34,644 bases of DNA from assembly GCA_021838715.1 (NCBI GenBank), contig JAKCCX010000022.1:1-34644 (forward strand), given 5' to 3'. The position numbers and the translations under genes are program-made. The stretch is from Pseudomonadota bacterium (GTDB taxonomy: Bacteria > Pseudomonadota > Gammaproteobacteria > Burkholderiales > Burkholderiaceae_F). The notes beneath the pieces are model-generated. The model saw only the letters and a program-made list of their open reading frames with translations, was not told the origin of the DNA and made no database searches. Below, one piece after another: positions 1-27,849 of this stretch (within the stretch, counting starts at the first letter, position 1; every line of letters starts with the position of its first letter).

Positions 1-140
1 GCATGCCGATGATCGTCGAACTGGGCATCGGCCTCGACGTGCTGGTGGGCGTGCTGATCCTCGGGGTGTTCATGTTCCAGATCCGGGAGCAGTTCGACAG
101 CCTCGACATCCGGAACCTCGAGCGCCTCAAGGAGGAATAG
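1..140 (+). CDS. HyfE-like membrane subunit of Ehr complex, C-terminal fragment
   Basis: Only the last 45 codons are inside the window; the frame is open from the left edge (first full codon at position 3) and ends with TAG at 138-140. The visible part is a hydrophobic helix (LDVLVGVLILGVFMFQI) followed by a charged tail containing DSLDIRNLERLKEE, the typical ending of HyfE/hydrogenase-4 component E proteins, small membrane subunits of group 4 hydrogenase-like complexes. The last G of its stop codon is the first base of the GTG start of the next gene, so the two are translationally coupled. Family assignment rests on this tail and on the HyfF/HyfG/HyfI-like genes that follow. The start lies outside the window. 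Confidence 0.75.
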   Translation, partial: MPMIVELGIGLDVLVGVLILGVFMFQIREQFDSLDIRNLERLKEE

Positions 141-1618
141 TGCCGGCTGCCATCCACCCCGCCCTGATCGCCCTCTTCTGCACGCTGGCCGTGCCGATCG
201 CCGGCGGCATCACGCTCGCCCTGGCGGGCCACCGCGACGACGGCCCCGAGATCAACATCGGCTTCAGCGCGGCGACGCTCGCCGCCGCGTTGTGGCTCAC
301 CGGCGAGGTTCTGCTGGGCGCGCCGGTGCTGGGGTTCGGCGAGCGGTTCTTCATCGACCCGCTCAACGCCTTTCTCGTCGCGCTCACCGCGCTCGTCGGC
401 TTCACGACGGCGGTCTTCTCGCGCCCCTACATGCGCCACGAGCGCGACGCCGGCAAGATGACGGCGCCGCGGATGCGCCTCTTCCACAGCATGTATCAAC
501 TCTTCTGCGCGATGATGCTGATGGCGCTGACCACCAACAACCTGGGCGTGCTCTGGGTGGCGATGGAGGCGGCGACCCTCACGACCGTGCTGCTGGTCTC
601 GGTGTACCGCACGCCCGCCAGCCTCGAAGCGGCGTGGAAATATTTCATCCTCTGCGGCGTCGGCATCGCCCAGGCGCTGTTCGGCACCATGCTGCTCTAC
701 CTCGCCGCCGACCGCGTCGTCGGCGGCGGCGAAAGCGCGCTGCTGTGGACCCATCTCGTGGCGGTCAAGAAATCGCTCGAACCCACCATCCTCGGCCTGG
801 CCTTCGTGTTCCTGATGATCGGCTACGGCACCAAGGTGGGCCTGGTGCCGATCCACAACTGGCTGCCCGACGCCCATGCCGAAGGGCCGACGCCGATCTC
901 GGCGGTGCTCTCGGGCCTGCTGCTCAACGTCGCGCTCTACGCCATCCTGCGCTGCAAGGTGCTTGCAGACGGCGCCATCCACAACGGCATGCCCGGCAAG
1001 ATGATGGTCGGGTTCGGTCTGGTCTCGGTGGTGGTCGCGGCGTTCTTCCTGTGGCGCCAGCGCGACGTCAAGCGGATGTTCGCCTACTCGTCGATCGAGC
1101 ACATGGGGCTGATGACCTTCGCCTTCGGCCTGGGCGGGCCGATCGCGAGCTTCGCCGGGCTGCTGCACATGACCGTGCATTCGCTCACCAAGTCGGCGAT
1201 CTTCTTCACCGTGGGCCACGCCACGCAGCGCGCCGGCTCGCAGGTCATGGAGGACATCCGCGGCCTGCTGCACGCCAGCCCGACGCTGGGCTGGGGGCTC
1301 ATCCTCGGGGCGCTGGCGATACTCGGCATGCCGCCCTTCGGCGTGTTCGCGAGCGAGTTCCTGATCCTCACGAGCGCGATGCATCAGCAGCCCTGGACCA
1401 CGCCGATCCTGCTGGCGGCGCTGGCGATCGCCTTCGCCGGGGTGTTCGGACGCGTGCAGGCGATGGTGTTCGGCGAATCCAGTCTGGCGCCCGCCACCCA
1501 TCGGCCGGCGCTGCTACCGGTGTTCGCGCATCTCGGCCTGGCGTTGATGCTGGGCATTTTCGTGCCGCCGTTCCTGGATCACTGGTACCGGCAGGCGGTC
1601 ACGCTGCTGACACCATGA
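140..1618 (+). CDS. HyfF-like ion-pumping membrane subunit (NuoM/NuoN/Mrp-type antiporter family)
   Basis: This 492-residue, strongly hydrophobic polytopic protein belongs to the antiporter-like family of complex I (NuoL/M/N) and hydrogenase-4 subunit F. It is expected in the cytoplasmic membrane, moving protons or sodium ions. Family hallmarks are visible: a buried glutamate in AMEAATL (E143), a lysine in AAWKYF (K167), the core signature GTKVGLVPIHNWLPDAH (residues 230-246, with K232 and H239) followed by AEGPTPISAVLSG, and a further lysine in RDVKRMFAYSS (K311). All charged residues normally tied to ion translocation are therefore present. The GTG at 140 overlaps the previous stop by one base, which supports this start. 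The HyfG-like gene starts 10 bases after the stop. The ion transported cannot be read from the sequence. Confidence 0.9.
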   Translation: MPAAIHPALIALFCTLAVPIAGGITLALAGHRDDGPEINIGFSAATLAAALWLTGEVLLGAPVLGFGERFFIDPLNAFLVALTALVGFTTAVFSRPYMRHERDAGKMTAPRMRLFHSMYQLFCAMMLMALTTNNLGVLWVAMEAATLTTVLLVSVYRTPASLEAAWKYFILCGVGIAQALFGTMLLYLAADRVVGGGESALLWTHLVAVKKSLEPTILGLAFVFLMIGYGTKVGLVPIHNWLPDAHAEGPTPISAVLSGLLLNVALYAILRCKVLADGAIHNGMPGKMMVGFGLVSVVVAAFFLWRQRDVKRMFAYSSIEHMGLMTFAFGLGGPIASFAGLLHMTVHSLTKSAIFFTVGHATQRAGSQVMEDIRGLLHASPTLGWGLILGALAILGMPPFGVFASEFLILTSAMHQQPWTTPILLAALAIAFAGVFGRVQAMVFGESSLAPATHRPALLPVFAHLGLALMLGIFVPPFLDHWYRQAVTLLTP

Positions 1619-1628
1619 TGCGCACCGC

Positions 1629-3197
1629 ATGAACGACGCCCCGCTTCCCGAACTGTCGTGCGGCTTCGTGCGCCTTGCGGGTGCGCTGCCGGTCTGGCGC
1701 GCCGTCGTGACCCCGCGCCAGTGGCGCGATGCGGCCAGCCTCGTCCGCAGCCGCGACGGGCGCCTGGTCGCCCTCTGGGGAACCGACCGGCGCGCGCACG
1801 ACGGCCGCTTCGGCGTCGCCGCGGCCTACGCGACGGCGGAGGGGTTCGTCTGGCTCGACCTGCCGATCGATGCCGCGGCCGAGGGCAGCAGTCTGCAGTA
1901 CCCCGACCTCGCCGCCGACTTCCCCCCCGCCGAGCGCATGCAGCGCGCGGTCGCGGATCTCCTCGGCCTCCACGCGGACGCGGCATCGGCACGTCGCCCC
2001 TGGCTGCGCCATGCGGCCTGGCCGGAAACCTACTTCCCGCTGCGGCGCGAGGCCGACGGCGGCGAACGCTTCGCGGCGGAAGACGAGCGCTACGACTTCG
2101 TCGCCGTCGAGGGCGACGGTGTGCACGAGATCGCGGTGGGCCCGGTGCATGCGGGCATCATCGAGCCGGGACATTTCCGCTTTTCGGTGGTCGGCGAAAA
2201 GGTCCTGCGGCTGGAAGAACGCCTGGGCTACGCCCACAAGGGAATCGACAAGCGCTTCGAGGGCATGGCGGTGGCGGCGGGCGCGCGCCTTGCGGCACGG
2301 GTGTCCGGCGACAGCACGGTGGCCTACGGGTGGGCGTACTGCATGGCGGCCGAAGCGCTCTGCGCGACCGAGGTTCCGGCGCGCGCGCAATGGCTGCGGG
2401 CGCTGGCGCTGGAGCGCGAGCGCATCGCCAGCCATCTCGGCGATCTGGGTGCGCTGGGCAACGACGCCGCGTTCGCCTTCGGGCTCGCCCAGTTCTCGCG
2501 TCTGCGGGAAACCTGGCTGCGCCGCAACCGCGAGGTGTTCGGGCACCGCCTGGGCATGGACTGGATCGTTCCCGGCGGAGTGGCGGGCGACATCCCCGCG
2601 TCGACGCTGGCGCAACTGCGCGACGACTGCGCGGCACTCGACGGCGAGGTGCACCGGCTGCAGTCGATCTACGACGAGCACGCCGGCCTGCAGGACCGAT
2701 TCGTCGGCACCGGGCGCATGGACCGCGACCTGGCGGCCCGCCTGCACTGCACCGGCATGGCGGCGCGCGCGAGCGGCCTGGGAAGCGATCTGCGCGCGGC
2801 GCTGCCGGTCGCGCCCTACGACCGGCTCGGCGTACACGTGGCGCGGGCGGCGGGCGGCGACGTCGCGGCCCGCGTGGCGCTGCGCTTCGCCGAACTCTAC
2901 GAGTCCTTGCGGCTCCTCGGCGACATCGCCCGCGACGTCCCCGACGGCGCGATCCGGACCCATGCCGGCGCGGCGGCGCCGGATGCGTTCGGGGCCGGCG
3001 CCGTCGAAGGGTGGCGCGGGGAAGTGTGGGTGGCGATCGAGTCCGATGGCCAGGGACGCATCCGGCGCGCCCACTGCCACGATCCGTCGTGGCAGAACTG
3101 GCCGGCGCTGGAGCATGCCATCATGGGCAACATCGTTGCCGACTTTCCCCTGATCAACAAATCGTTCAACCTGAGCTACGCCGGGCACGATTGCTGA
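1629..3197 (+). CDS. HyfG-like large subunit (fused NuoC-NuoD type) lacking NiFe-site cysteines
   Basis: This 522-residue protein has a NuoC-like N-terminal domain (about 1-145) fused to a NuoD/HycE-like large-subunit domain (about 165-522; GPVHAGIIEPGHFRF at 171-185, then EERLGYAHKGIDKRF). In group 4 [NiFe] hydrogenases two CxxC motifs hold nickel. Here the first motif reads SGDS at residues 226-229 (bases 2304-2315), in the context ARVSGDSTVAYGWAYC. The C-terminus reads DFPLINKSFNLSYAGHDC instead of DPCxxC. All four ligands are absent, so no NiFe centre can form as in known enzymes. The single C522 is the last residue and is not part of a CxxC motif. The protein fits the Ehr (energy-converting hydrogenase-related) type. 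It lies between hyfF-like and hyfI-like genes. The electron donor or acceptor is unknown. Confidence 0.88.
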   Translation: MNDAPLPELSCGFVRLAGALPVWRAVVTPRQWRDAASLVRSRDGRLVALWGTDRRAHDGRFGVAAAYATAEGFVWLDLPIDAAAEGSSLQYPDLAADFPPAERMQRAVADLLGLHADAASARRPWLRHAAWPETYFPLRREADGGERFAAEDERYDFVAVEGDGVHEIAVGPVHAGIIEPGHFRFSVVGEKVLRLEERLGYAHKGIDKRFEGMAVAAGARLAARVSGDSTVAYGWAYCMAAEALCATEVPARAQWLRALALERERIASHLGDLGALGNDAAFAFGLAQFSRLRETWLRRNREVFGHRLGMDWIVPGGVAGDIPASTLAQLRDDCAALDGEVHRLQSIYDEHAGLQDRFVGTGRMDRDLAARLHCTGMAARASGLGSDLRAALPVAPYDRLGVHVARAAGGDVAARVALRFAELYESLRLLGDIARDVPDGAIRTHAGAAAPDAFGAGAVEGWRGEVWVAIESDGQGRIRRAHCHDPSWQNWPALEHAIMGNIVADFPLINKSFNLSYAGHDC

Positions 3198-3224: not shown

Positions 3225-3830
3225 ATGCCGCTTCGCCTGCTCCGCCAGATCATCCGCGTCGGCACCATTTCGGAGCCGCCGCCCGCCCCCGCCCCGGCGC
3301 ACGCTTCCGCCGACGGCGAGGCGGCCATCACGACCCACGAGGCGCACGCGATTCAGGCGGAGATCCTGGACCTGCTGGGACACGCACTCGCCATCCGGCA
3401 GGTGGACGCCGGTTCGTGCAACGGCTGTGAACTCGAGATCCAGGCGCTCAACAGCCCGTACTACAACCTCGAAGGCATCGGGATCAAGTTCGTCGCCAGT
3501 CCGCGCCATGCCGATCTGCTGCTGGTGACCGGTCCGGTGTCGGCGCACATGGAAGCCGCGCTGCGTCGGACCTACGACGCCGTTCCCGCGCCCAAGCGGG
3601 TGGTGGCGGTGGGGGAATGCGGCTGCAACGGCGGCGTGTTCGGCGAAAGCTATGCCTGCCGCGGGCGCGTGGCGAACGTCATTCCGGTGGACGTCGAGGT
3701 GGGCGGCTGCCCGCCGGCGCCGGTCGAGATTCTGCGGGCGATCCGGACGGCGATCACGAGCACCGGCGCCGTCTCCCTGCGCGCACCCGCGGACCCGCCC
3801 CCACCCGCCGTCGCGGGAGCGGGCGGGTGA
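3225..3830 (+). CDS. HyfI/NuoB-like small subunit carrying a 4Fe-4S cluster
   Basis: This 201-residue protein of the NuoB/HycG/HyfI family is the peripheral subunit that carries the last Fe-S cluster facing the large subunit (N2 in complex I). The cluster ligands are visible: GSCNGCELE gives C65 and C68, VGECGCNGG gives C132 (with C134 beside it) and VGGCPPAP gives C162. Unlike the large subunit, the electron-transfer site is therefore intact. The N-terminus (about residues 15-40) is Pro/Ala-rich and variable, and the C-terminal tail ends in a Pro/Ala stretch. It starts 27 bases after the large-subunit gene and is the last gene of this operon; the next gene is convergent. No ferredoxin-like HyfH subunit lies downstream, so other subunits are probably upstream of the window. 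Confidence 0.9.
   Translation: MPLRLLRQIIRVGTISEPPPAPAPAHASADGEAAITTHEAHAIQAEILDLLGHALAIRQVDAGSCNGCELEIQALNSPYYNLEGIGIKFVASPRHADLLLVTGPVSAHMEAALRRTYDAVPAPKRVVAVGECGCNGGVFGESYACRGRVANVIPVDVEVGGCPPAPVEILRAIRTAITSTGAVSLRAPADPPPPAVAGAGG
3793..3828 (+). terminator. Hairpin at the 3' end of the hyfI-like gene
   Basis: Inverted repeat ACCCGCCC (3793-3800) / GGGCGGGT (3821-3828), with an inner stem CCCGC (3804-3808) / GCGGG (3813-3817). It lies inside the last codons of the hyfI-like gene, just before its stop, between convergent genes. There is no T-tract, so its role as a terminator is tentative. Confidence 0.3.
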
Positions 3831-3849: not shown

Positions 3850-4908
3850 TCAAAACAGTTCGAGTTCGGCGGCCTGCACGGGTTTCCGCGCGAGCAGCCC
3901 CTCCCGCAACAGCGCTTCGTATGCCAGGGTGCGGTCGCGGCCGTGCTCCTTGGCGAAATAGAGCGCCGAATCGGCGCGATCGATGGCCGAGGCGGGAATG
4001 TCGTAGGAGCCGATGCGGGTGATGCCGACGCTCACCGTGACCTGGCCGATCTGGGGAAAGCGGTGTTGCGCGATCGCCGTGCGGAAGCGCTCGAACGCCT
4101 TCATCGCACCCAATTCGTCGGCGTCGTCGAGGATGACGAGGAACTCCTCGCCGCCAAAGCGGAACAAAGCCTCCGATTGGCGGAAGGTCTCCTGCATCCG
4201 GCGGGCGATGAGCAGCAGCACCTCGTCGCCGAACAGATGTCCGAAGGTATCGTTGATCGCCTTGAAGCGGTCGACGTCGATGATCCCCACCCAGTTGGTG
4301 CGCGTTCCGGCCCTCTGGTCTCCGGCACGGCGCCGGAAGACCCGCCGTTTCGCGAACATCGTCTCGAAGGTGCGGCGGTTGCGCAGACCGGTGAGCGTAT
4401 CGCGCTCGCCATAGTCGAGCACGCTCAGATGATTGCGCAGGATGCGCAGGACCGCCTGGACCATCCGGGCATCGTCAGGCCGCAGGACCATGCAGCGGCC
4501 GGCGCATTCGATTTCGAGCAGGCCGATCAGGCCGTGGTCGGCCACGACCGGAAACACGGCATTCAGGGATCCCGGTTCCTCGGCGTCGTCGTCGGCGAGG
4601 TAGTGCACCACGTCGCCGCGCCGCACACATTCCCGCCACGACACCCGGGATCCGACCGTCGGCCATCCTTGCGGATCCGCGGGGTCGTCGTCGGCCACCG
4701 TCCGCGCCCCCGCCGCGTCGGCGACGGCGCGCAACTGCACGCCGCGCGATTCCTCGGTCCGGTCGGCCCCGGCCGGCAGCAGCCGGTACAGGCATACCCG
4801 CCCCGGGCGGATATGGGAGTACAGCATCGCCACGATCGCGCGGTCGACCGCATCCCGGTCCCGATGGGACGTGATGTCGGCGAGCGAGTCGATCAGACCG
4901 GGAATCAC
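3850..4908 (-). CDS. Diguanylate cyclase with N-terminal GAF-like region
   Basis: A cytosolic regulator that should make cyclic di-GMP from two GTP. From the GTG at 4908 the protein has 352 residues. The N-terminal region (about 1-165) looks like a GAF-type sensor domain (LRAVADAAG, then LNAVFPVVADHGLIGLLEIE). The C-terminal GGDEF domain has DTLTGLRNRR (170-179), DRFKAINDTFGH and an active-site GGEEF (252-256), an accepted functional variant. The inhibitory-site position reads RQSE (243-246) instead of RxxD. The frame stays open upstream to 5253, but that part overlaps the divergent methyltransferase gene and is low-complexity, so it was excluded. No clear ribosome-binding site marks the GTG, leaving the exact start uncertain. 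There are no transmembrane segments. The input signal is unknown. Confidence 0.85.
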   Translation of the reverse strand: MIPGLIDSLADITSHRDRDAVDRAIVAMLYSHIRPGRVCLYRLLPAGADRTEESRGVQLRAVADAAGARTVADDDPADPQGWPTVGSRVSWRECVRRGDVVHYLADDDAEEPGSLNAVFPVVADHGLIGLLEIECAGRCMVLRPDDARMVQAVLRILRNHLSVLDYGERDTLTGLRNRRTFETMFAKRRVFRRRAGDQRAGTRTNWVGIIDVDRFKAINDTFGHLFGDEVLLLIARRMQETFRQSEALFRFGGEEFLVILDDADELGAMKAFERFRTAIAQHRFPQIGQVTVSVGITRIGSYDIPASAIDRADSALYFAKEHGRDRTLAYEALLREGLLARKPVQAAELELF

Positions 4909-5185
4909 GATGCGATAAGAAAAGCGGGGGAGAGGTGGGGCAGGAGAATCCGGCAATCGTAGGCAAACGCAAGCATCCCGAATCGCGACAAAGCGGGGGG
5001 TTTCGCCCCCGGTTCCGGCCTTTCCCCCGCCGGCGGCGCCCGGAGGCCGCGGCGCCGCCCGGCAGTTGGGATTTCGGCCGCGCCCCGGTAACATTGCGGG
5101 GTTTCCAGCCGCCGCATGTCCGTGCGACCAGCCCGGGCATGCAGCCCGTACAACCAACCCGCGCACCCCGCCTGAGAACGCCGCC

Positions 5186-5893
5186 ATGTCCATCTCCGCT
5201 GCCGAATCGACCGTTCCTCCGCATGCCGATTTCGAACGATTCCGGTTCAACATGATCGAGCAGCAGATCCGCCCTTGGGACGTTCTGGAACCGTCGGTGC
5301 TGGACTTGCTCTACGTCGTCAAGCGGGAAGATTTCGTGCCGGCGCATCTGCGCGCGCTCGCATTCACGGATTTCGAACTGCCGCTCAACCTGGACGGCGA
5401 GGTCACCGGCGAAACGATGCTGGCGCCGAAGATCGAGGCGAAACTGCTCCAGGAATTGCGCATCCATCCGCACGAGCAGGTTCTGGAAATCGGCACCGGC
5501 TCGGGCTACATGGCGGCGCTTGCCGCCCACAAGGCCGAGACGGTCTGGACGGTCGAGATCGACCCGCGCCTGGCGGCCTTCGGCGCCGCCAATCTCGCGC
5601 GCGCCGGGGTGCACAACAGCCATGTGGAAACCGGCGACGGCGCCCGGGGCTGGGCGGCGCACGCGCCCTATGACGTGATCATCGTCTCGGGATCGCTGCC
5701 GCTGCTGCCCAGGAGCCTGCTCGAACAGCTCAAGGTCGGCGGACGCCTCGCCGCGGTGGTCGGCTGCGGACCGGCGATGAGCGCGCAGATCGTCACGCGC
5801 GTCACCAACGGCAACTACGAAACCCTGCCGCTGTTCGAAACGGTGACGAAACCGCTGCGCAACGCGCTGCAGCCGTCGGCGTTCCGGTTCTGA
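5186..5893 (+). CDS. Protein-L-isoaspartate O-methyltransferase family protein (Pcm-like)
   Basis: A 235-residue SAM-dependent methyltransferase of the Pcm family, which in characterised members repairs isoaspartyl residues in damaged proteins. The family's opening FNMIEQQIRPWDVL is at residues 21-34, the SAM-binding motif EIGTGSGYM at 101-109, an acidic ribose-binding strand in WTVEIDPRLAAFG, and the later motif AHAPYDVIIVSGSLP. The ATG at 5186 was chosen because it keeps the usual short leader before FNMIEQQ; an internal ATG at 5252 would cut into that motif. Members of this beta-proteobacterial subgroup are often linked to envelope genes such as tolC, but here the neighbours are a GGDEF gene and glgP. 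The true substrate of this subgroup is less certain than for E. coli Pcm. Confidence 0.85.
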   Translation: MSISAAESTVPPHADFERFRFNMIEQQIRPWDVLEPSVLDLLYVVKREDFVPAHLRALAFTDFELPLNLDGEVTGETMLAPKIEAKLLQELRIHPHEQVLEIGTGSGYMAALAAHKAETVWTVEIDPRLAAFGAANLARAGVHNSHVETGDGARGWAAHAPYDVIIVSGSLPLLPRSLLEQLKVGGRLAAVVGCGPAMSAQIVTRVTNGNYETLPLFETVTKPLRNALQPSAFRF

Positions 5894-6008: not shown

Positions 6009-8567
6009 TCATAGCCAGAGCATCAGGCCGGTCTCGAACCGGTGCGTCAGCAGGTCGTGGTACGGGTAGACCCGGATCCGGTAATCGAACTTGCCGCAGG
6101 ACTCGGGTGTGAAATCGAGTACGTAGCGGTGTTCCCCGGACGCAGGCAGCCCGGCCGCATGGACGAAGAAGCGGCCCACGGTGGAATCGCTGTCCTCGCG
6201 CGTGACGTCGCTCAGGCGCAGTTCGACCCGCACGTCGCTGGCATCGAGCCCGTTCAAGTTCACCGCCACCTCGATCCGCAGGTGTTCGCCGAACCGCGCG
6301 CGCGGCGCCGTCCCGGTGTCCAGCCGGCGCAGCTTCACGCCCGGCCAGGCGGTGCGGACCTTGTTCTTCCATGCCGCGACGTCCCGCGCGCCGCGGGAGT
6401 CGTCGCGCGAGAACCGCCGCCCCTGGCGCGCCGCCGGCCCATAGAACTGCGCGAGATAGTCGCCCACCATCCGGTTGGCGTTGAACCGCGGCAGGATCGT
6501 GGCGATGGAACGCTTCATCCGCCGGATCCAGTCCGGCGGGTAGCCCATCTCGCCGCGGTTGTAGTAGGTCGGCAAGACCTGGTCCTGCAGCAGTTCGTAG
6601 AGCGTGCGCGATTCCTCGATGGTGCGGTCGAACTCGTTGAGCGCCTCCGAGGCCGGCTTGATCGCCCAGCCGTTGTCGCCGGTGTACCCCTCGCCCCACC
6701 AGCCGTCGAGCACCGACAGGTTGAGCACACCGTTGATCCCCGCCTTCATGCCGGACGTGCCGGAGGCCTCGAGCGGATAGATCGGGTTGTTCAGCCAGAC
6801 GTCCACCCCCGATACCAGGCGGCGGGCCAGGCGCAGGTCGTACCCCTCGACCATCAGGATGCGGCCTTCGAACTCCGCCGTGCGCGAGACGCGCGTGATC
6901 TGCCGGATCAGTTCCTGGCCCGGCTGGTCCGCGGGGTGCGCCTTGCCGGCGAAGATGAAGAGCACCGGGCGCGCGTCGTCGCTGATGATCTGCCGCAGCC
7001 AGTCGAGGTTTTCGAACAGCAGGGTCGCGCGCTTGTAGGTCGCGAAGCGGCGCCCGAAGCCGATCGTGAGCACGTTGGGATTTTCCGGGTCGGCGTAGCG
7101 CAGCATGCGGTCGAGGTGCGCCTCGCTGCCGCGGTTGCGGAAATGCTGCGTCGAGACGCGATGCCGGATCAGGCGCAGCATCTGCGATTTGAGGAACTGG
7201 TGACGGCTCCAGACGATGTGGTCGGGCAGCTCTTCGACCCGCGCCGACACGGTGGGGTCGCCGATGCGCTCCTGCCAGTCGATGCCGAGGAAGCGGTCGA
7301 AGTCGTTGCTCCAGTCGGGCGACAGAAAGGTGGGGACGTGCACCGCATTGGTCACGTACATCACCGGATTTTCTTCCTCCGGGATCTGCGGCCAGAGGTC
7401 GCGCAGCATGGCCGCGCTGACGTCGCCGTGAATCCGCGAGACGCCGTTCTGGAACCGCGAGCCGCGAACCGCCAGGGTCGTCATGTCGAAATCGCTGCCG
7501 CCCGACTGGCCCAGGCCGTAGAACGCCGGCCAGTCGATGCGCAGTTCGCTGCAATAGGCGGTGAAGTACGTCCGCATCAGGTCTTCCGGGAAGCGGTCAT
7601 GCCCCGCCGCCACCGGCGTGTGCGTGGTGAAGACGGTATTGGCTGCGACCGATTCGATCGACCCGGCGAGGTCCAGCCCCTGACGCATGTTCTCGCGGAC
7701 CCGTTCGAGCACGAGAAACGCCGCGTGCCCTTCATTCATGTGCCACACCGTCGGGCGCAGCGCCAGGGCATCGAGGGCGCGCGCGCCGCCGATGCCCAGG
7801 ACGATCTCCTGCTGGATCCGCGTCTCGCGGTCGCCGCCATAGAGCCGGTGGGTGATGTGGCGGTCGCGCTCGGAATTGGCCGGCAGGTCGGAATCGAGCA
7901 ACAGCAGCCGGACATGGCCGACCTTCGCCTCCCACACCCGCACCTTCAGCGTTCGCCCCGGCATGTCGACATCGACGCAGACTTCCTTTCCCGCCGCGTC
8001 CAGCACCGGCATCACCGGCAGGTCATCGAAGGCCGAGTCCTGGTAGATCGCCTGCTGCCCGCCGTCGGCGTCGATCTTCTGCTGGAAATACCCCTGGCGA
8101 TAGAGCAGCCCCACGCCCACGAACGGCAGACGCAGATCGCTCGCCGCCTTGCAATGATCGCCGGCGAGGATGCCGAGGCCGCCGGAATAGATCGGCAGGC
8201 TCTCGTGGAACCCGAACTCGGCGCAGAAATACGCGACCAGATCGTTCTCGCCCAGCACCGCGCTGATGGGGCTGCGGCTGGTCTCGCCCAGATACGCATC
8301 GTATGCGGAGAGCATGCGCTGGTAGCTGTTGAGAAACCCCGGATCTTCCGCCGCCTCGACCAGGCGGCGCTCGTCGATGCGTTTCAGCAGCACTTTCGGG
8401 CTGTGCCCGACGCTGTCCCATAATTTCGAATCGAGCCGCGCAAACAACTGGCGTGCCGGGCTGTCCCAGCTGTACCAGAGATCGTGCGCGATCTCGTCCA
8501 TCCGCTCGAGCCGCTTCGGAATCTTCGGATTGATTTCCAGCAAAAACGCGGTGCCAGGGCGAGTCAT
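6009..8567 (-). CDS. glgP: Alpha-glucan (glycogen/maltodextrin) phosphorylase, GT35
   Basis: This 852-residue PLP enzyme cleaves alpha-1,4-glucan with phosphate to give glucose-1-phosphate. The N-terminal ~100 residues resemble the DUF3417 domain of the bacterial COG0058 subfamily (EINPKIPKRLERMDEIAHDL, then WYSWDSPARQLFARL). The PLP-lysine motif is SGTSGMKAGINGVLNLS, with K608 as the Schiff-base lysine, followed by DGWWGEGY. Other visible family segments are GGLGILAGDHCKAASDL, EGHAAFLVLE, TTHTPVAAGHDRF and FGRRFATYKRA. The ATG at 8567 is preceded by GAGGA about 8 bases upstream and gives the expected N-terminus; the frame extends to 8642 but adds nothing family-like. It is divergent from waaC. 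The glycogen synthesis genes lie 21 kb to the right, so storage-polymer genes are split in this window. Confidence 0.93.
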   Translation of the reverse strand: MTRPGTAFLLEINPKIPKRLERMDEIAHDLWYSWDSPARQLFARLDSKLWDSVGHSPKVLLKRIDERRLVEAAEDPGFLNSYQRMLSAYDAYLGETSRSPISAVLGENDLVAYFCAEFGFHESLPIYSGGLGILAGDHCKAASDLRLPFVGVGLLYRQGYFQQKIDADGGQQAIYQDSAFDDLPVMPVLDAAGKEVCVDVDMPGRTLKVRVWEAKVGHVRLLLLDSDLPANSERDRHITHRLYGGDRETRIQQEIVLGIGGARALDALALRPTVWHMNEGHAAFLVLERVRENMRQGLDLAGSIESVAANTVFTTHTPVAAGHDRFPEDLMRTYFTAYCSELRIDWPAFYGLGQSGGSDFDMTTLAVRGSRFQNGVSRIHGDVSAAMLRDLWPQIPEEENPVMYVTNAVHVPTFLSPDWSNDFDRFLGIDWQERIGDPTVSARVEELPDHIVWSRHQFLKSQMLRLIRHRVSTQHFRNRGSEAHLDRMLRYADPENPNVLTIGFGRRFATYKRATLLFENLDWLRQIISDDARPVLFIFAGKAHPADQPGQELIRQITRVSRTAEFEGRILMVEGYDLRLARRLVSGVDVWLNNPIYPLEASGTSGMKAGINGVLNLSVLDGWWGEGYTGDNGWAIKPASEALNEFDRTIEESRTLYELLQDQVLPTYYNRGEMGYPPDWIRRMKRSIATILPRFNANRMVGDYLAQFYGPAARQGRRFSRDDSRGARDVAAWKNKVRTAWPGVKLRRLDTGTAPRARFGEHLRIEVAVNLNGLDASDVRVELRLSDVTREDSDSTVGRFFVHAAGLPASGEHRYVLDFTPESCGKFDYRIRVYPYHDLLTHRFETGLMLWL

Positions 8568-8734
8568 GACGTATGGGTCCTCAAGATGGATCGATGGTGC
8601 GTCGCCCCATATTAGCAGCCGATTCTTGCGCACCTCGGGCATGCCGATCGCCGTCGAACATCGCGACGATCGGCATGTTGCCTTGCACCAAGGCTGTGCG
8701 CGCCTCGCAATCGCACTCCGGTAAACTCGCGCCG

Positions 8735-9709
8735 GTGCGCGTCCTGATCGTCAAAACCTCATCGATGGGCGATATCGTCCATGCCCTGCCGATGGTCACC
8801 GACATCGCGCGCGCCTTTCCGCACGCCCGCATCGACTGGGTGGTCGAAGATGCGTTCGCGGAAATTCCCCGCCTGCATCCCTCGGTATCCCGGATCATTC
8901 CGATCGCCTTGCGGCGCTGGCGGAAGAAGCCCTTCTCACGGCAAAGCTGGCGCGAACTGCTCGCCGCGCGCAGCAGCCTGCGGCGGGTTCGCTATCACAC
9001 CATCATCGACTGCCAGGGCCTGCTCAAGAGCGCCCTCGTCGCCGGTTCCGCCCGCGGCCCGGTGAGCGGGTTCTCGCGGACCTCCGCGCGCGAGCCGCTG
9101 GCGACGTTCTTCTATCGGCGCACCGCCAGCATCGACCGGCGCCTGCACGCGGTGGACCGCAACCGCCGCCTCGCCGCCTTCGCGCTCGGATATGCGCTCG
9201 ATGGGCCCGAGGAATTCGGGCTGCGGCCAGCGCCGGGCGATGGCGTGTTTGCCGAGTCCGGTTCGGTGCTGCTGCTCACCAACGCCAGCCGCGCCACCAA
9301 GCTGTGGCCGGACTCGCACTGGACCGCGCTCGAGCGCCACCTCGCCGACCGGGGCTACCGCTGCCTGCTGCCCTGGGGCAGCGACGCGGAGCGGCAGTCC
9401 TGCGAGCGACGGGCGCAACCGATGGTGGCGGCGCAGGTCCTGCCGCGCGCCAATCTCTCGCAGCTCGCCAGCCTGGCGGCGGGCGCGGCGCTGACGATCG
9501 GGCTCGACACGGGCCTCACGCATCTCGCCGCGGCGACGGGAACGCCGGCGGTGGGGATCTATTGCGACTACGACCCGGGGCTGGTCGGGTTGCGCGGCAG
9601 CGGACGGGTCGCCAGCCTCGGCGGCGTGGGCATGACGCCGTCGGTGGCCGAAGTGCTCGCCGCCGTCGACCGGGTGCTCGCCAACCGGCCGGAGCCGGCG
9701 CCGCAATGA
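8735..9709 (+). CDS. waaC: Lipopolysaccharide heptosyltransferase I
   Basis: This 324-residue GT9 glycosyltransferase should add the first L-glycero-D-manno-heptose from ADP-heptose to Kdo2-lipid A at the inner face of the cytoplasmic membrane. It opens with the family motif RVLIVKTSSMGDIVHALP. Donor-side motifs include LLLTNASRATKLWPDSHW and, near the C-terminus, GLDTGLTHLAAATGTPAVGI. The GTG at 8735 was chosen because translation from it begins directly at RVLIVKTSS; the open frame upstream overlaps glgP's 5' region and is not family-like. The last bases overlap waaA as ATGA (9706-9709), indicating translational coupling. Heptosyltransferase II was considered, but the opening motif and the waaA partner favour WaaC. 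Confidence 0.9.
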   Translation: MRVLIVKTSSMGDIVHALPMVTDIARAFPHARIDWVVEDAFAEIPRLHPSVSRIIPIALRRWRKKPFSRQSWRELLAARSSLRRVRYHTIIDCQGLLKSALVAGSARGPVSGFSRTSAREPLATFFYRRTASIDRRLHAVDRNRRLAAFALGYALDGPEEFGLRPAPGDGVFAESGSVLLLTNASRATKLWPDSHWTALERHLADRGYRCLLPWGSDAERQSCERRAQPMVAAQVLPRANLSQLASLAAGAALTIGLDTGLTHLAAATGTPAVGIYCDYDPGLVGLRGSGRVASLGGVGMTPSVAEVLAAVDRVLANRPEPAPQ

Positions 9710-11148
9710 GCGCGGAGGGTCGCCCGCCGCAGCGCGCACCGGTCTGGTACACCGCGGCATGGATCGCCGCGCTGCCGTTCGTGGCGCTGTACCTCTGCCG
9801 GCGCGGGCTGCGCCAGCGCGAGTACTTCCGGCACTGGGGCGAGCGGTTTCTCGGAGCGGGTGCGCGCACGCCCGCTCCGCTGCCGCGGGACGCGCGCCCC
9901 GCACCGACCATCTGGATCCACGCCGTCTCGGTCGGCGAAACCCATGCGGCGTGGCCGCTGATCGAGCGGCTCGCACGGAATCATCCGGGCGCCCGCTTCG
10001 TGTTGACGCACATGACCCCCACCGGCCGCGCCGTCGGTGCCGAGATCGCGCAACGGCTCGCGCGCGCGGCGGGGTCCGGCCCGCTCTCGCAACGCTATCT
10101 CCCCTACGACCTGCCCGGACCCGTACGGCGATTCCTGCGCGAGACGCGCCCGGACGTCGGCGTGCTGATGGAAACCGAGATCTGGCCCACGCTGCTCCAT
10201 GAAGCCGCGGCGGCGGGAATTCCGACCGTGCTCGCCAACGCGCGGCTCTCCGAGCGGTCGGCCGCCAAGGCGGCGCGATTCTCGCGTTTGTTCGCCGGTG
10301 CCGGCGCCAACCTCGCCGCCGTCGGCGCGCAGACCCCGGAGGATCGCGATCGCATCGCGCGCTGGTTCCCCGGGCCCATCGCCGTCACCGGCAACCTGAA
10401 ATTCGACCTGCGGCCCGATGCCGAACTCGTCGCCCGCGGCCAACGGTGGCGCGCACGGATCGGCGCCGATCGGCCGCTATGGCTGTTCGCCAGCACGCGG
10501 GAAGGCGAAGAGGCGATGCTGCTCGATGCGTTGTCGGCCCGCGCCGGCACGGAAATGGCGTCGCCGGCGTCGCCGGCGTCGTCGCCCCGGCTGTTGTTCG
10601 TCCCCCGCCACCCGCAGCGCTTCGACGATGTGGCCGCCTTGCTGGTGCAACGCGGCCTGCGCGTGCTGCGGCGCACACAATGGGAGTCTCCGTTTGCCGA
10701 TCCGGCCGCGCCGGATGCATCGACCGTCCTGTTGGGCGACTCGATGGGCGAGATGCCGATGTACTACGCGATGGCCGACGCGACCGTGATCGGCGGCAGC
10801 CTCGCGCCCTTGGGCGGACAGAACCTCATCGAAGCGGCCGCCTGCGGCTGCCCGATCGTGTTCGGTCCGCACATGTTCAACTTCGCCCAGGCAGCGGCCG
10901 ATGCGGTCGCCTGCGGCGCCGCACGCCGCGTGGCCGACGCCGCGGAGGCACTGCAGGCGCTGGGGGAGATCACCCGCGACGCCGCGCTGCGCGCCCGGAT
11001 GCGCACCGCGGCCCAGGCGTTTTCCCAGACCCACCGCGGCGCCGCCAACCGGATGGTTGCGGTGATCGAGGAGGCGTTGCGGACGCCGCCCGGTCAGACG
11101 GCAACGGCAAGCGGACTGCGGCGACGGTCGTCGCCGACACCGTCGTAG
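9706..11148 (+). CDS. waaA: 3-deoxy-D-manno-octulosonic acid (Kdo) transferase
   Basis: This 480-residue GT30 enzyme transfers Kdo from CMP-Kdo to lipid IVA. An N-terminal hydrophobic anchor (VWYTAAWIAALPFVALYL) precedes the acceptor-site motif HAVSVGET with the catalytic glutamate. Further motifs are METEIWPTLL, NARLSERSA, TGNLKFDL, FVPRHPQRF and GGSLAPLGGQNLIEAAACG. The usual STH(P/E)GEE stretch reads ASTREGEE. The protein is longer than the roughly 425 residues of E. coli WaaA. Part of the excess is an ASPASPASS insert just before the FVPRHP strand, and the C-terminal tail is also long. The start overlaps the waaC stop (ATGA). The 3' end overlaps the convergent epimerase gene by 55 bases. 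Confidence 0.92.
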   Translation: MSAEGRPPQRAPVWYTAAWIAALPFVALYLCRRGLRQREYFRHWGERFLGAGARTPAPLPRDARPAPTIWIHAVSVGETHAAWPLIERLARNHPGARFVLTHMTPTGRAVGAEIAQRLARAAGSGPLSQRYLPYDLPGPVRRFLRETRPDVGVLMETEIWPTLLHEAAAAGIPTVLANARLSERSAAKAARFSRLFAGAGANLAAVGAQTPEDRDRIARWFPGPIAVTGNLKFDLRPDAELVARGQRWRARIGADRPLWLFASTREGEEAMLLDALSARAGTEMASPASPASSPRLLFVPRHPQRFDDVAALLVQRGLRVLRRTQWESPFADPAAPDASTVLLGDSMGEMPMYYAMADATVIGGSLAPLGGQNLIEAAACGCPIVFGPHMFNFAQAAADAVACGAARRVADAAEALQALGEITRDAALRARMRTAAQAFSQTHRGAANRMVAVIEEALRTPPGQTATASGLRRRSSPTPS

Positions 11149-12116
11149 CCGTAATAGCTCCGCAGCCACCGCACCAGGGCGTCGAGCCCGACGTCGATGT
11201 TGGTCGTCGGCCTCCAGCCGAGATCGCGAATCGTGGCGTCGATGTCGGCCGCCGTCGACCGGACGTCCCCGGGCTGCATGGGTTTGAACACCCGCTTCGC
11301 GGGTTTGCCGATGGCGCGCTCCAGGATTGCGATGAAATGCAGCAATTCCTCCGGGCGATGGTTTCCCAGGTTGTAGACGCGATGCGACACCGCGTCGAAC
11401 CGGGACGTCTCGTCGAGCGCGCGCAAGGTTCCGTCGACGATGTCGTCGATATAGGTGAAATCGCGACGCATGTCCCCTTCCCCATAGACCTCGATGGGCT
11501 TCCCCTCGAAGATGGCGCGGGCGAACTTCAACGGCGCCATGTCCGGACGCCCCCAGGGCCCGTACACGGTGAAGTAGCGCAACCCGGTGAGGCGCAAGCC
11601 GAACTGCATCGCGTACACCTGCGCAATCAGCTCGTTCGCCCGCTTGGTGGCGGCATAGAGGCTGATCGGCCGCTCGACCGGATCGTCGATCGAGAACGGC
11701 TGCTTGACGTTGGCACCGTACACGCTGGACGACGATGCGTAGACGAAGTGCCGGACGTTTCCCGCCGCGCGAGCCGCTTCCAGCAGATTGACGAATCCGG
11801 CGATGTTGCTGTCGATGTAGGCGTGCGGGTTTTCAAAGGAGTAGCGCACGCCGGCCTGCGCGGCAAGATGAACGATGCGGGCGGGCCGCGTCTCCGCCAT
11901 CAGCGAGAACAGGGCCGCGCGATCCGCCAGGTCGATTTCCGCCACCCGATACGCGGGGTCGGCCCCGCGCGCCACGCGGTCGCGTTTGAGCTGCGGGTCG
12001 TAATACGAATTGAAGTTGTCGATCCCCACCACGCGCTCGCCCCGCGCAAGCAGCGCCTCCGCAACCGCGCTGCCGATGAATCCGGCGCATCCGGTAACCA
12101 GAACCGTGTCTTCCAC
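11094..12116 (-). CDS. NAD-dependent nucleotide-sugar epimerase, UDP-glucuronate 4-epimerase type
   Basis: This 340-residue extended-SDR protein should interconvert UDP-glucuronate and UDP-galacturonate. The nucleotide-binding motif GCAGFIG is at residues 9-15, catalytic Y154 and K158 are in SLYAATKRANE, and the preceding serine-rich YASSSSVYG is present. The segment KQPFSIDDPVERPISLYAA followed by RYFTVYGPWGRPDMA is characteristic of UDP-glucuronate epimerases rather than GalE. The GTG at 12116 is preceded by GGGAGG 4 bases upstream and begins directly before the Rossmann motif; an alternative ATG at 12170 adds a Pro/Ala-rich leader. It is the last gene of the glycan operon, 69 bases after ugd, whose product UDP-glucuronate would be its substrate. 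Its 3' end overlaps waaA. Confidence 0.87.
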   Translation of the reverse strand: MEDTVLVTGCAGFIGSAVAEALLARGERVVGIDNFNSYYDPQLKRDRVARGADPAYRVAEIDLADRAALFSLMAETRPARIVHLAAQAGVRYSFENPHAYIDSNIAGFVNLLEAARAAGNVRHFVYASSSSVYGANVKQPFSIDDPVERPISLYAATKRANELIAQVYAMQFGLRLTGLRYFTVYGPWGRPDMAPLKFARAIFEGKPIEVYGEGDMRRDFTYIDDIVDGTLRALDETSRFDAVSHRVYNLGNHRPEELLHFIAILERAIGKPAKRVFKPMQPGDVRSTAADIDATIRDLGWRPTTNIDVGLDALVRWLRSYYGYDGVGDDRRRSPLAVAV

Positions 12117-12185
12117 CCTGCCTCCCGACCAAGGCGGCGCGACCCCCGGCCGCGCCGCATCCGATGACAACCCGCAGACGACCGC

Positions 12186-13520
12186 TCAGGCGGCCGTCGG
12201 ACGCCCGATCCCGACGTAGCGCAGCCCCGCCGCGGCAACCGCCCGCGGGTCGTAGAGGTTGCGTCCATCGACGAGGGTGCGGGCGCGCAGCCTGGGCGCC
12301 AGCGCGGCAAAATCCGGGCTGCGGAACTCGAGCCATTCCGTGACCACGACCAGCGCATCGGCACCTTCGCAGGCCGCTTCAGCGGTGTCGCAGATGGCGA
12401 CCTTGCGCTCGATTTCGGACAATGCCCGGCGGGCCGTATCGCGGGCCTGCGGATCGTATGCCCGCACCGTCGCCCCGGCGGCGACGAGGTCGCGAATCAG
12501 GACCACGCTCGACGCCTCGCGCACGTCGTCGGTGTTGGCCTTGAAGGCGAGTCCCCATATCGCGATCACCCGGCCGCGCAGTTCGCCGCCCAGCGCATCG
12601 CGCAGCTTGATGGCAAGAACGTGCTTCTGTTCCTCGTTGACTTCATGCACCGCCGACAACAGACGCGCCGAGACGACGTTCTCGCGCGCCATCGCCAGCA
12701 GCGCCCGGACGTCCTTGGGAAAGCACGAGCCGCCGTACCCCGCGCCCGCATAGAGGAAGCTCGGTCCGATCCGGGGGTCGGCGCCGATCGCCTCCCGCAC
12801 CTTCTCGATGTCGGCGCCGAGCTTTTCCGCCAGGCGCGCCAGTTCGTTCATGAACGAGATCCGGGTCGCCAGCATCGCATTGGCCGCGTACTTCGCCAGC
12901 TCCGACGAATGCGGATCGAGAATGATCAGGCGGTTGTGGTTGCGGTTGAACGGCGCATAGAGCGCGGTGAACGTCGCGATCGCGTCCGGATCTTCGGTGC
13001 CCACGACGATGCGGTCCGGATGCATGAAGTCGGCAACCGCAGCGCCTTCCTTGAGGAATTCCGGATTGGACGCGACGGCGACCTTGAGCGATTTGCCGCG
13101 GTGGGCGAGTTCCTCCTCGACGGCGTGGGCGACGAGAACGTGCGTGCCGACCGGCACGGTGGACTTGACGACCACCAGCGCGTTTCTCGTCAGGCGCCGG
13201 CCGAGTTCGCGCGCCGCCCCTTCCACGTGCCGGACGTCGGCCGAACCGTCTTCGTCGGTCGGCGTGCCCACGGCGATGAAGAAGATGTCGGAATGCGCGA
13301 CCGCGGCGTCGTAATCCGACGAAAAATGCAGCCGCCCCGCCGCCCGGTTGCGCGCCACGACCTCGTCGAGCCCCGGTTCGTGTATGGGAATCTCGCCATC
13401 GTTCAGGCGCGCGACCTTGGTCTTGTCGATGTCGATGCACAGCACCGAGTTGCCGACGTCCGCCAGACACGCACCGGTGACCAGGCCGACGTACCCCGTT
13501 CCAATGACCGTAACTTTCAT
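12186..13520 (-). CDS. ugd: UDP-glucose 6-dehydrogenase
   Basis: This 444-residue enzyme oxidises UDP-glucose to UDP-glucuronate with 2 NAD+. The N-terminal Rossmann motif is [15 protein letters not shown] (residues 6-20). The catalytic thiol is C266 in [10 protein letters not shown]. Other hallmarks are [46 protein letters not shown] and, in the C-terminal domain, [16 protein letters not shown]. The length is normal for bacterial Ugd. The ATG at 13520 overlaps the TGA of the upstream histidine-phosphatase gene (ATGA), so the pair is translationally coupled. With the epimerase downstream it supplies acidic sugar donors to the glycosyltransferases of this operon. Confidence 0.95.
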
Positions 13521-14239
13521 TTCGACCTTTCCCTATATTCCACGGAATCAACAGAAAATCGACTCGATCGGAGGTGCCGGCCGCCGACGCTGGCCATGCC
13601 GGACCGTCGGCGGGTGCCCCGAACCCCGCCGGCACGCAAGTCTAAACGGACGACCGCACCGGGTTCGACCGCAAACGCCCGGAACTGCGACAGCGGCAGA
13701 TCGCCCGCCGCCAGAAGCGCCAGGCGGATGATTCCGGCGTGGGTGACGACGACCGTCGTCCCCGACCGGTTCCGCCGCGACCGCAGGGTCCGGAGGAACG
13801 CCCTCAGTCGCGCCTGCGCCTGGGCCAGCGTCTCCCCTTCGGGGAACCGGAAGCGGTCCGGAGTCCGCTTCCACGCCCGGAGTTGGTCCGGCCAGCGCTC
13901 GCGCACCTCGCGCTGCGTCAACCCTTCCCAGCTTCCGAAGCGCAGTTCGTGCAATCGCCGGTCGACGGCGGGACGCCCGACGCCGAGACATCGGGCGATC
14001 ACCGCCGAGGTCCGGACCGCCCGGCGCAAAGGGCTCGATACGACGGTCGTGACCCGATGCCGCAGAAGGCTGCGGGCGGCGCGGCGCGCCTGGCACACGC
14101 CGGCCGGCGCGAGGGGGATGTCGCTGCCGCCTTGATAGCGCCCCTGCGCCGTCCAGCGCGTTTCACCGTGCCGGACGAAATAGATCGCCGCGCGCCCCCC
14201 GGGACGAGACCGGACCGGTCGTTCCGCGCTACGCGTCAC
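13517..14239 (-). CDS. Histidine phosphatase superfamily (phosphoglycerate-mutase-like) protein
   Basis: This 240-residue cytosolic phosphatase of the branch-1 histidine phosphatase superfamily carries the catalytic FVRHGETRW motif (RHGE at 23-26), the second-half [13 protein letters not shown] with the second histidine, [15 protein letters not shown], and LRFGSWEGL with the usual acidic residue. The catalytic set looks complete. The GTG at 14239 overlaps the stop of the ABC-exporter gene (GTGA), and its own stop overlaps the ugd start (ATGA). The substrate cannot be told from sequence; a phosphorylated sugar or lipid-linked intermediate of the glycan pathway is an inference from context. The first ~18 residues are basic and the C-terminal ~40 are basic and low in family similarity. 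Confidence 0.85.
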
Positions 14240-16077
14240 GACACCACCATCCCGGCCATCGGCGCCGCGCCCTCTTCGCGCAGCAGCGCGCGCCACAGCC
14301 GGCCGTAGGCGCCGCGGCGGCCAAGCAGTTCCTCATGGGTGCCGCGCTCGACGATGCGCCCGCGCTCCAGCACCAGGATCAGGTCGGCTGCGACGACGGT
14401 TTCGAGGCGATGGGCGATGACGAGGGCGGAGCGGCCCCGTGCAAGCTGCCGCAGGGCCGTCATCACGCCGTACTCGGTCGTCGGATCCAGACTGCTGCTG
14501 GGTTCGTCGAGGAGCACGATCGGCGCGCTCGCCAGCATCGCCCGGGCGATCGCGACGCATTGGCGCTGCCCGCCCGAGAGGGTGCCGCCGCGTTCCCCCA
14601 CCACCGTGTCGAATCCCTGCGGCAGCCGCTCGAACACCGATGCCACGCCGACCTGCCGCGCTGCCTCGATCGCCTCGGCGCGCCCCGCCGAGGGGCCGCC
14701 GTATGCGATGTTCTCCCAGATGCTCGCGCGGAAGAGCACGGGGTCCTGATGCACGGTCGCGACGTTCCGGCGCACGAAGTCGAGTCGCAAGCTGCGGAGG
14801 TCGAAGCCGTCGAGGACCACGCTGCCGGAATCCGGGTCATGGAAGCGTGCGATCAGGCCGGCGATCGTGCTCTTCCCCGATCCGGTCTCGCCCACGAGGG
14901 CGACCATCTTCCCGGGTTCGAGGGCGAAGGAGACGTCGCGCAGCACCATCTCCCCGGGGAGATATCCAAAGCAGACGTGACGCAGTTCGACCTTGCCTGC
15001 GCAATGGTCCGGCAGCACCGCGTCGGGCATCTCCGCGATCGCCGACCGTTCCGCCCGGCATTCGCCGATGCGTTCGATTGCCACGATCGACCGCCCGAAC
15101 ACCCGTCCCGTCTTGGCCAACTGGCGTGCCGGCGTCGCCATCCGATTGACGTACGCCATGAACACCAGCAGTTCTCCCACCGTCAACGTCCCGTGCATGA
15201 CGCTGCCGGCGCCATACCAGGCGACCGCCCCGGTCGCCACCGCGAGGACGAGTCCGATCGCCGGCCCGAACTGCGCCTGGGCCTCGTTGGCCTTCTCGTT
15301 CGACGCGAGACCGGCATCGGCGATCCGGGCAAAGCGCCGGTCCTCGTACGCCTCGCGCGCGAACGCCTGCACGACGTGCAGCGCGCCGAACACCTCCTGG
15401 ACCGCGCTCCAGAGATTTCCCTCCTGCTGCCGGACCTCGCGAAGCGACCGCCGCAGGCGTGCCGCGTAGTACCGCGCGACGAAGAACAGCACCGGGGCCA
15501 CCGCGACGGCAAACAGTCCGAATCGCCAGTTGACCCACATCATCACGGCCGCCATCCCGAGGATCGAAAGCGTGTGCGGCACGACGTCGATCCCGATCGC
15601 GGCGATGAGGTCCTGCAACTGGCGCACGTCCGCTCCGATCCGCGTCATGAGTTCGCCGCCCGGGGTGCGGCGATGGAAACCCAGGTCCATGCGCTGCAGA
15701 TGCGCGAACAGGTCGGCGCGCACACGCAGGACCACCCGGCTTCCGGCATCGAGGAGCAGTCGATTCCCCCCGTACACCAGGACGGCCTCGACCGCCCCCA
15801 GGCCGATCATCGCGAGGATCAGGACATCGAGCAGCGCGGTCCGGCCCAGGACCGGATCGGGAAGCAGTCCCGCGAGACGGTGCGGCAACGGATGCTGGAG
15901 CAGCACGCTGTCGAAGAGGAACTTCAAAGGCCAGGGCGTCACCAGCAGGACCACGGAACGCAGCACCGTCATCGAGCACCCGGCAATGAACTTGCCGCGC
16001 TCCTGTGCGAGGTACTGCCACAGCCACGCGCGCCCGCCCGGGTGCGGAAGCGCCGGGTTCGCGCCACGACCGTTCAT
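14236..16077 (-). CDS. ABC exporter, fused membrane and ATPase domains (MsbA-like)
   Basis: This 613-residue half-transporter is expected to work as a homodimer in the cytoplasmic membrane. The transmembrane domain covers about residues 30-320. The nucleotide-binding domain has Walker A GETGSGKST (396-404), signature LSGGQRQ (500-506), Walker B with DEPSSSLD (524-531) and the H-loop in VIAHRLET. All ATPase residues are present. It resembles lipid/glycolipid flippases and multidrug exporters of the MsbA type. Its place between glycosyltransferases and sugar-nucleotide genes suggests it flips or exports the glycan product, which is inference. The start overlaps the upstream GT4 stop (ATGA, 16074-16077), and its TGA overlaps the phosphatase GTG. 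No peptidase domain is present, so it is not a peptide exporter of the C39 kind. Confidence 0.92.
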   Translation of the reverse strand: MNGRGANPALPHPGGRAWLWQYLAQERGKFIAGCSMTVLRSVVLLVTPWPLKFLFDSVLLQHPLPHRLAGLLPDPVLGRTALLDVLILAMIGLGAVEAVLVYGGNRLLLDAGSRVVLRVRADLFAHLQRMDLGFHRRTPGGELMTRIGADVRQLQDLIAAIGIDVVPHTLSILGMAAVMMWVNWRFGLFAVAVAPVLFFVARYYAARLRRSLREVRQQEGNLWSAVQEVFGALHVVQAFAREAYEDRRFARIADAGLASNEKANEAQAQFGPAIGLVLAVATGAVAWYGAGSVMHGTLTVGELLVFMAYVNRMATPARQLAKTGRVFGRSIVAIERIGECRAERSAIAEMPDAVLPDHCAGKVELRHVCFGYLPGEMVLRDVSFALEPGKMVALVGETGSGKSTIAGLIARFHDPDSGSVVLDGFDLRSLRLDFVRRNVATVHQDPVLFRASIWENIAYGGPSAGRAEAIEAARQVGVASVFERLPQGFDTVVGERGGTLSGGQRQCVAIARAMLASAPIVLLDEPSSSLDPTTEYGVMTALRQLARGRSALVIAHRLETVVAADLILVLERGRIVERGTHEELLGRRGAYGRLWRALLREEGAAPMAGMVVS

Positions 16078-21473: not shown

Positions 21474-21481
21474 GGTCCAAC

Positions 21482-27819: not shown

Positions 27820-27849
27820 CGCGGGCCTTTGCACGAAAAGCGACAAGAC

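Follow-up and report, generated by a model that had tools for sequence, protein, structure and literature searches.

A hyfBCEFGI operon that very probably encodes an Ehr complex, with a large subunit that lacks all four nickel ligands

What can a hydrogenase-like complex do when its large subunit has kept none of the four nickel ligands? The question is raised by the first genes of a 34,644-nucleotide stretch of DNA (the window), which makes up all of contig C95 in a bacterial genome of 2.6 Mb and 96% completeness. An initial annotation of the window had assigned these genes to an Ehr complex, related to group 4 [NiFe] hydrogenases and complex I, and alignment, tree and literature all support that call. 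From sequence comparison, the window very probably begins with the end of an operon of six genes, hyfB-C-E-F-G-I (ehr), that codes for an Ehr complex and not for a hydrogenase (Table 1).

The hyfF frame extends without a stop as far as base 2, owing to the start of the contig; residue numbers for HyfF count from the GTG at 140. The genes upstream, where hyfB and hyfC had been suggested to lie, were found on contig C73 (8927 bases) of the same genome, with matches to hyfB, hyfC and hyfE (residues 1-215 of 219) between 5209 and 8917. Positions 8793-8918 of C73 correspond to 1-126 of the window, 126/126 bases being identical, and the last 9 bases of C73 fall outside the match. The hyfE fragment in the window is 100% identical to residues 175-219 of HyfE in a relative (locus L080), in which hyfB-C-E-F-G-I is uninterrupted and followed by the same GGDEF gene as in the window; the gene order is the same in L080 and in Rhizobium pRL11. 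Among the matches listed, the nearest loci of the named set belong to two 'Proteobacteria bacterium' bins, with large subunits 88 and 86% identical to that of the window.

Directly behind hyfI the window carries a GGDEF diguanylate cyclase gene (3850-5253, minus strand), as do loci L079-L081. Further along are cell-surface sugar genes (11094-17867, minus strand: an epimerase, a UDP-glucose/GDP-mannose dehydrogenase, a member of the histidine phosphatase family, an ABC exporter and a glycosyltransferase) and an RND efflux cluster (20145-29277) with an HlyD-like adaptor, a large ORF of 1026 aa, another of 1086 aa and a 482-aa ORF. The first large ORF is AcrB-type (PF00873) and BLAST clusters the second with it, which makes two pump proteins.

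Table 1. Features of the operon end at the start of the window
Feature	Position	Strand	Remark
hyfE 3' end (last 45 codons and stop)	3..140	+	gene starts on contig C73, same genome
hyfF, NuoL/M/N-like antiporter subunit	140..1618	+	GTG start; NF005045, Proton_antipo_M
hyfG/ehrL large subunit, 522 aa	1629..3197	+	NuoC-like N-terminus and NuoD/HycE-like body, without Ni ligands
SGDS (residues 226-229), site of first CxxC	2304..2315	+	aligned to HycE CGIC
DFPLINKSFNLSYAGHDC (residues 505-522), site of C-terminal DPCxxC	3141..3194	+	aligned to HycE DAPLIIGSLDPCYSCTDR; protein end
hyfI/ehrS, NuoB-like small subunit, one predicted [4Fe-4S] site	3225..3830	+	PF01058
CNGC (C65, C68), predicted cluster ligands 1 and 2	3417..3428	+	aligned to CNGC of MbhJ and HycG
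C132, predicted cluster ligand 3	3618..3620	+	alignment, Cys positions
C162 (GGCPP), predicted cluster ligand 4	3708..3710	+	alignment, Cys positions

The large subunit and its family

The large subunit matches PF00346 (2.4e-37) and PF00329 (2.3e-7), and its best match in the PDB is HycE of the E. coli formate hydrogenlyase (7z0s_E, 1.7e-57), to which it aligns across residues 75-518. Alignment to HycE and to NuoD-type references bore out the replacement of the nickel-ligand positions that the initial annotation had read at both ends of the site: SGDS stands at C-G-I-C, and NLSYAG takes the place of DPCYSC, with S516 and G519 aligned to both Cys. The four ligand positions are accordingly S226, S229, S516 and G519. 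Intact CxxC motifs elsewhere in the protein, which would have told against this reading, were also looked for. Cysteines occur at 11, 238, 245, 334, 374, 483 and 522 of the 522-aa protein and form no CxxC, so no intact motif is hidden elsewhere; such a motif occurs in 2 of the 113 large subunits of the family, at unrelated places. C522 is absent from the sister loci L079 and L080, both of which end in L.

The loci fetched yielded 127 homologues, of which 113, including that of the window, reached at least 300 bits and were counted as family; this number pools contigs of a named-genome scan with class genomes, and possible duplicate species were retained. No Cys is present at any of the four ligand positions in 106 of the 113 (the window included), and seven have a single one, which is never at either C-terminal position (0/113). 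Position 226 is S in 96, A in 12 and C in 5; position 229 is S in 90, T in 20, C in 2 and A in 1; position 516 is S in 96, N in 11 and A in 6; and position 519 is G in 112 and A in 1. Given these 113 large subunits, the absence of ligands from the window protein goes beyond chance. Every one of the 113 also stops three residues past position 519, where HycE and HyfG have 35 residues. In [NiFe] hydrogenase maturation, the C-terminal tail is cleaved off during nickel insertion.

A structure model of the single HyfG chain of the window superimposes on HycE (7z0s_E) with Z 41.2 and rmsd 3.0 over 495 residues, at 27% identity in the structure alignment, and on complex I chains of NuoD-like fold with Z 36 to 38. 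Whole-gene comparison with L080 (NG86) indicates purifying selection on hyfF (dN 0.026, dS 0.328), hyfG (dN 0.072, dS 0.372) and hyfI (dN 0.097, dS 0.434). A HyfF-HyfG fusion, considered for the very long frames over some large subunits (e.g. 1024 aa in L079), was discarded, as hyfF lies in another frame in L079; going by L079, these frames are taken as GC-rich open frames.

The family consists of 89 large subunits of clade 1 ('DFPxINKS') and 24 of clade 2 (21 with 'DFPVCNKS', three with L or I for V), and the other 14 homologues are nine members of a second Ehr group, four MBS-like proteins (L075-L078) and the genome's own NuoD. A D-domain tree was built from 64 rows, comprising 61 of the 127 homologues (23/89 of clade 1, 24/24 of clade 2 and 14/14 others) and three E. 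coli references. Clades 1 and 2 are each set apart by a branch (99/94 and 98/90) and unite at 100/99. A further branch (98/95) separates both of them and the second Ehr group from the rest, next to HycE/HyfG, and the NuoD and MBS-like rows lie beyond HycE/HyfG on the other side. Less confidence attaches to the outer joins, because the tree program flagged long branches for the NuoD/MBS-like side as well as for the HycE/HyfG side. Of the placement proposed in the initial annotation, the position beside HycE/HyfG and apart from NuoD was thereby obtained, in a tree composed of fetched homologues and E. coli references alone, not of archaeal MBH or published Ehr sequences; the published Ehr were compared through the motifs printed for Acidithiobacillus (see below). 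On the simplest reading, the ligands would have been lost once, prior to the split of the Ehr clades, and the family appears to descend from hydrogen-making enzymes whose nickel site was lost.

Ehr of this clade is common. A clade 1 or clade 2 Ehr match of at least 300 bits was found in 34 of 274 sampled class genomes (this one included). All 80 loci retained from the named-genome scan reach at least 300 bits and many of their titles name Betaproteobacteria; the scan as a whole returned at least 562 relatives (E up to 1e-3), which may include complex I and are not counted as Ehr. Some loci hold more than one Ehr cluster. Locus L070 (1-19500) has two divergent second-group clusters facing one another in one genome (large subunits at 7903-9549, plus strand, and 15456-17153, minus strand), and L086, L114 and L138 each combine one large subunit from clade 1 with one from clade 2, about 10 kb apart or less.

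The iron-sulfur site, the membrane arm and the former nickel pocket

The hyfI product (PF01058, 1.2e-28; best PDB match MbhJ, 6cfw_J) has no Fer4 family domain by Pfam. Its cysteines lie at 65, 68, 132, 134, 145 and 162, and alignment to MbhJ agrees with the annotation that C65 and C68 (in CNGC), C132 (in GECG) and C162 (in GGCPP) are kept. The annotation had further described a retained Fe-S relay. Of this, the cluster of the NuoB-like subunit stands and the relay does not, as there would be a single cluster and no HyfH/NuoI-type gene was found near the large subunit in the loci examined. Both CxxC and GCPP are present in 111/111 NuoB-like ORFs adjoining family large subunits, and a ferredoxin motif is present in none of them (0/111), while E. 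coli HyfH carries a pair. The flanking 9 kb upstream and 3 kb downstream, as far as contig ends allow, contain no ORF with two ferredoxin motifs in 112 of 113 cases. The one such ORF, in L101, was rejected as HyfH/NuoI, its PF02754 and Fer4_8 domains pointing to a GlcF-type protein. The genome carries its own NuoD and NuoI, the single NuoI match over the cut-off lying beside NuoD on contig C53, with weaker matches on C8, C55 and C125.

The NuoI match on contig C8 forms part of a second Ehr complex, of another clade, in the same genome (large subunit at 2177-4909 of L037, minus strand; 32% identical), with the pocket RVSGVDS ... NEASFGLSIAGADR and the gene order C-(E)-F-G-I-B. Its small subunit has Fer4 domains fused to Oxidored_q6. 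The window complex is predicted to have one cluster site and its C8 sister more.

As for the membrane arm, the hyfF product scores 850 bits against NF005045 ('hydrogenase 4 subunit F', cut-off 543). The charged channel residues that HyfF was said to keep are indeed there: E143, K167, K232, K311, H343, H347, K351 and E406 are identical in 82/82 HyfF-like ORFs and in E. coli HyfF. The Ehr complex probably moves ions across the cell membrane.

In or beside both former ligand motifs, D228, N510 and K511 are invariant (113/113), where HycE has I, I and G. S512 and Y517 are likewise found in 113/113, and HycE shares them along with H174, E179 and H182. Across its nine rows, the second Ehr group most often has V at 228, E at 510 and A at 511; D228, N510 and K511 therefore mark clades 1 and 2, not all Ehr. 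D279, kept in 113/113, aligns to D139 of Thermus thermophilus Nqo4. H38 and Y87 of Nqo4, which we take to be the two quinone headgroup ligands, fare differently: H38 aligns to I178, found in 113/113, and Y87 to G227 (HMMER) or T230 (MAFFT), with no Tyr by either alignment. The replacement of nickel and quinone ligands together with the invariant residues points to a pocket that is neither a nickel site nor an ordinary quinone site, yet is under constraint. The HyfG model confirms the fold, but its pLDDT falls below 50 at 153-205 and 515-522, part of the pocket, whose geometry it does not resolve. The conserved pocket could be structural.

Partners and possible functions

The neighborhood of the operon was scanned in 76 of 81 loci (the window and 75 named ones), five being left out as their large subunit was missed in ORF picking. 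Beyond the operon genes, the most frequent families reach 15 of the 76. The operon genes themselves were called 75 times for hyfF, 71 for hyfC/E, 66 for hyfB and 63 for hyfI, in stretches that end at contig ends, and the neighborhoods in class genomes and on pRL11 resemble these loci. Co-occurrence in whole genomes likewise gives no clear partner. With kinship ignored, RuBisCO is found in 20/34 Ehr genomes versus 122/240 others (p 0.46) and HypD in 17/34 versus 92/240 (p 0.20); the formate dehydrogenase alpha subunit (Fdh-alpha) is over cut-off in 14/34 versus 56/240 (p 0.035, uncorrected for three tests and ignoring kinship), a weak association. Of the 17 clade 1/2 Ehr genomes without a HypD match, 14 are at least 95% complete, and Ehr does not depend on HypD. 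The genome studied here has RuBisCO matches on contigs C18 and C100, HypD on C28 and matches to the hydrogenase large-subunit family PF00374 on C28 and C61 (L160-L164); it is possibly that of an autotroph able to use H2.

Our first choice is a redox-driven ion pump with a soluble donor and a substrate in the former pocket, a reading that, identity and mechanism taken together, we hold with moderate confidence; an antiporter is our second. The mechanism within it, for which we infer the donor, substrate binding, coupling, ion and direction, falls a little short of an even chance. Because the HyfH/NuoI subunit is missing, a small soluble low-potential donor, most simply ferredoxin, would dock straight onto the NuoB-like subunit and reduce its single [4Fe-4S] cluster. 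The electron would then react with a putative polar substrate in the former Ni-Fe pocket, bounded by D228, N510 and K511 with H174, E179, S512 and Y517, and a change in charge or shape would travel via HyfC and reach HyfB and HyfF, antiporter-like subunits that would move H+ or Na+. Such redox-ion coupling would fit the retention of channel residues, the purifying selection and a pocket both altered and invariant; none of these names a donor, substrate or direction. That the pocket is a rebuilt active site, where a polar substrate meets the one Fe-S cluster and a soluble donor supplies this cluster directly, is possible if rather doubtful.

The membrane arm might instead work as a secondary antiporter of the Mrp kind or a pH-homeostasis device exchanging H+ for Na+ or K+, with EhrL/EhrS and their one cluster sensing pH or redox state, or acting as a structural plug, and no net electron flow. 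Two antiporter-like subunits, an operon in which no donor module is seen and the loss of both quinone and nickel ligands would suit such a device, as would the pH role suggested for Methylacidiphilum ehrABCDLS (PMC6688271). However, the CxxC and GCPP motifs in all 111 small subunits and an invariant pocket are more than a plug should need, and we regard the antiporter as unlikely. A short complex I that reduces quinone would explain the NuoD-like fold and the retention of D279; it is at odds with I178 in place of H38 and with the lack of Tyr at the Y87 position, and seems decidedly improbable.

It is very unlikely that the complex belongs to a formate- or CO-oxidizing system in which a dehydrogenase encoded elsewhere feeds it electrons, although several published observations lean that way: an FDH-Ehr system was proposed in Margulisbacteria and Saganbacteria, in an account of Ehr without nickel ligands (PMC6349859); Geobacter Ehr subunits are higher on formate than on hydrogen, which the authors connect with formate dehydrogenase (PMC7894505); and hyfBCEFGI, present in Nitrospira, adjoins CO dehydrogenase in Ca. 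Nitrospira nitrosa, though not in two relatives (PMC5596200). To these may be added the weak Fdh-alpha co-occurrence described above. Against them, no dehydrogenase is found among the conserved operon genes, 20 of the 34 Ehr genomes have no Fdh-alpha over cut-off, and the genome studied here has no Fdh-alpha match (TIGR01591) at 1e-100, with 4 of 7 candidates scored and the genome 96% complete; being RuBisCO-positive without such a match, this genome would speak against a formate hydrogenlyase here so far as those candidates go. It is barely conceivable that the complex is still a hydrogenase, its nickel bound by Ser or other ligands or in a site that another protein completes. HypD and PF00374 proteins in the genome do mean that maturation machinery is at hand, but the latter can account for the former. 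The S/S/S/G ligand positions, the lack of any CxxC or cleavable tail and the absence of HypD from half of the clade 1/2 Ehr genomes all count against a hydrogenase, as does Ehr expression in Nitrospira moscoviensis, reportedly not raised by H2; about half of Nitrospirales genomes have Ehr (PMC12342949).

Relation to known complexes and implications

By sequence, the window complex very probably belongs to the already published Ehr family. The hyfBCEFGI type, with the same six gene names as the window operon, has been described in Acidithiobacillus, in Cupriavidus metallidurans, for which the cluster was printed and noted also in Cupriavidus necator strain H16 as H16_A2196-A2201 (PMC2864759), and in Nitrospira. 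The motifs printed for Acidithiobacillus Ehr, SGD[TS][TS][AV][GA]Y and NLSYSGHDL (PMC6002666, section 22), match those of the window clade; the S and final L of the latter motif, where the window protein has A518 and a final C, make no difference in kind. In At. ferrooxidans, hyfBCEFGI was classed as a non-hydrogenase by HydDB, reportedly no Hyf subunit was found in cells on H2, and a role with formate was suggested (PMC7735108). Ehr has also been treated in Sulfobacillus (PMC4378227) and elsewhere (PMC10284858; PMC8691401, legend; PMC10432482), and is not mentioned in PMC12361115. In the literature searched, mostly without subscription journals, we found neither an assay of a hyfBCEFGI-type Ehr in purified form nor one addressing D228 or K511, and no reaction assigned to Ehr complexes.

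E. coli Hyf (hydrogenase-4/FHL-2) and Hyc (hydrogenase-3/FHL-1) have counterparts of HyfB, C, E, F, G and I of the window operon, whereas Ehr is without the nickel ligands and the C-terminal tail, and HyfA, HyfD, HyfH and HyfJ have no counterpart among the conserved Ehr operon genes. Respiratory complex I shares a homologous fold and subunits (NuoB, CD, H and L/M/N), down to the equivalent of Nqo4 D139; in Ehr, however, H38 and Y87 are replaced and the operon lacks NuoI and an NADH module. MBS-type complexes (Pyrococcus, 6u8y) have related subunits and are likewise without the full set of nickel ligands, but their pocket motif RICVPxP differs, and the four loci with that motif group with NuoD in our tree. 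The present analysis adds an operon recovered from two contigs, the lack of a donor subunit in contrast to the C8 paralogue, the absence of a maturation tail and a pocket that is altered yet invariant.

As annotation names Ehr subunits hydrogenase-4 or NADH-quinone oxidoreductase, the presence of hyf genes need not mean H2 production. The invariant residues and the missing donor subunit provide a short list of tests for Ehr function. Should the former nickel pocket prove to be a rebuilt active site, the complex would be a minimal redox-driven relative of complex I without nickel, quinone ligands or a ferredoxin subunit, and its sister in the same genome would have gone the other way, fusing ferredoxin domains to its small subunit.
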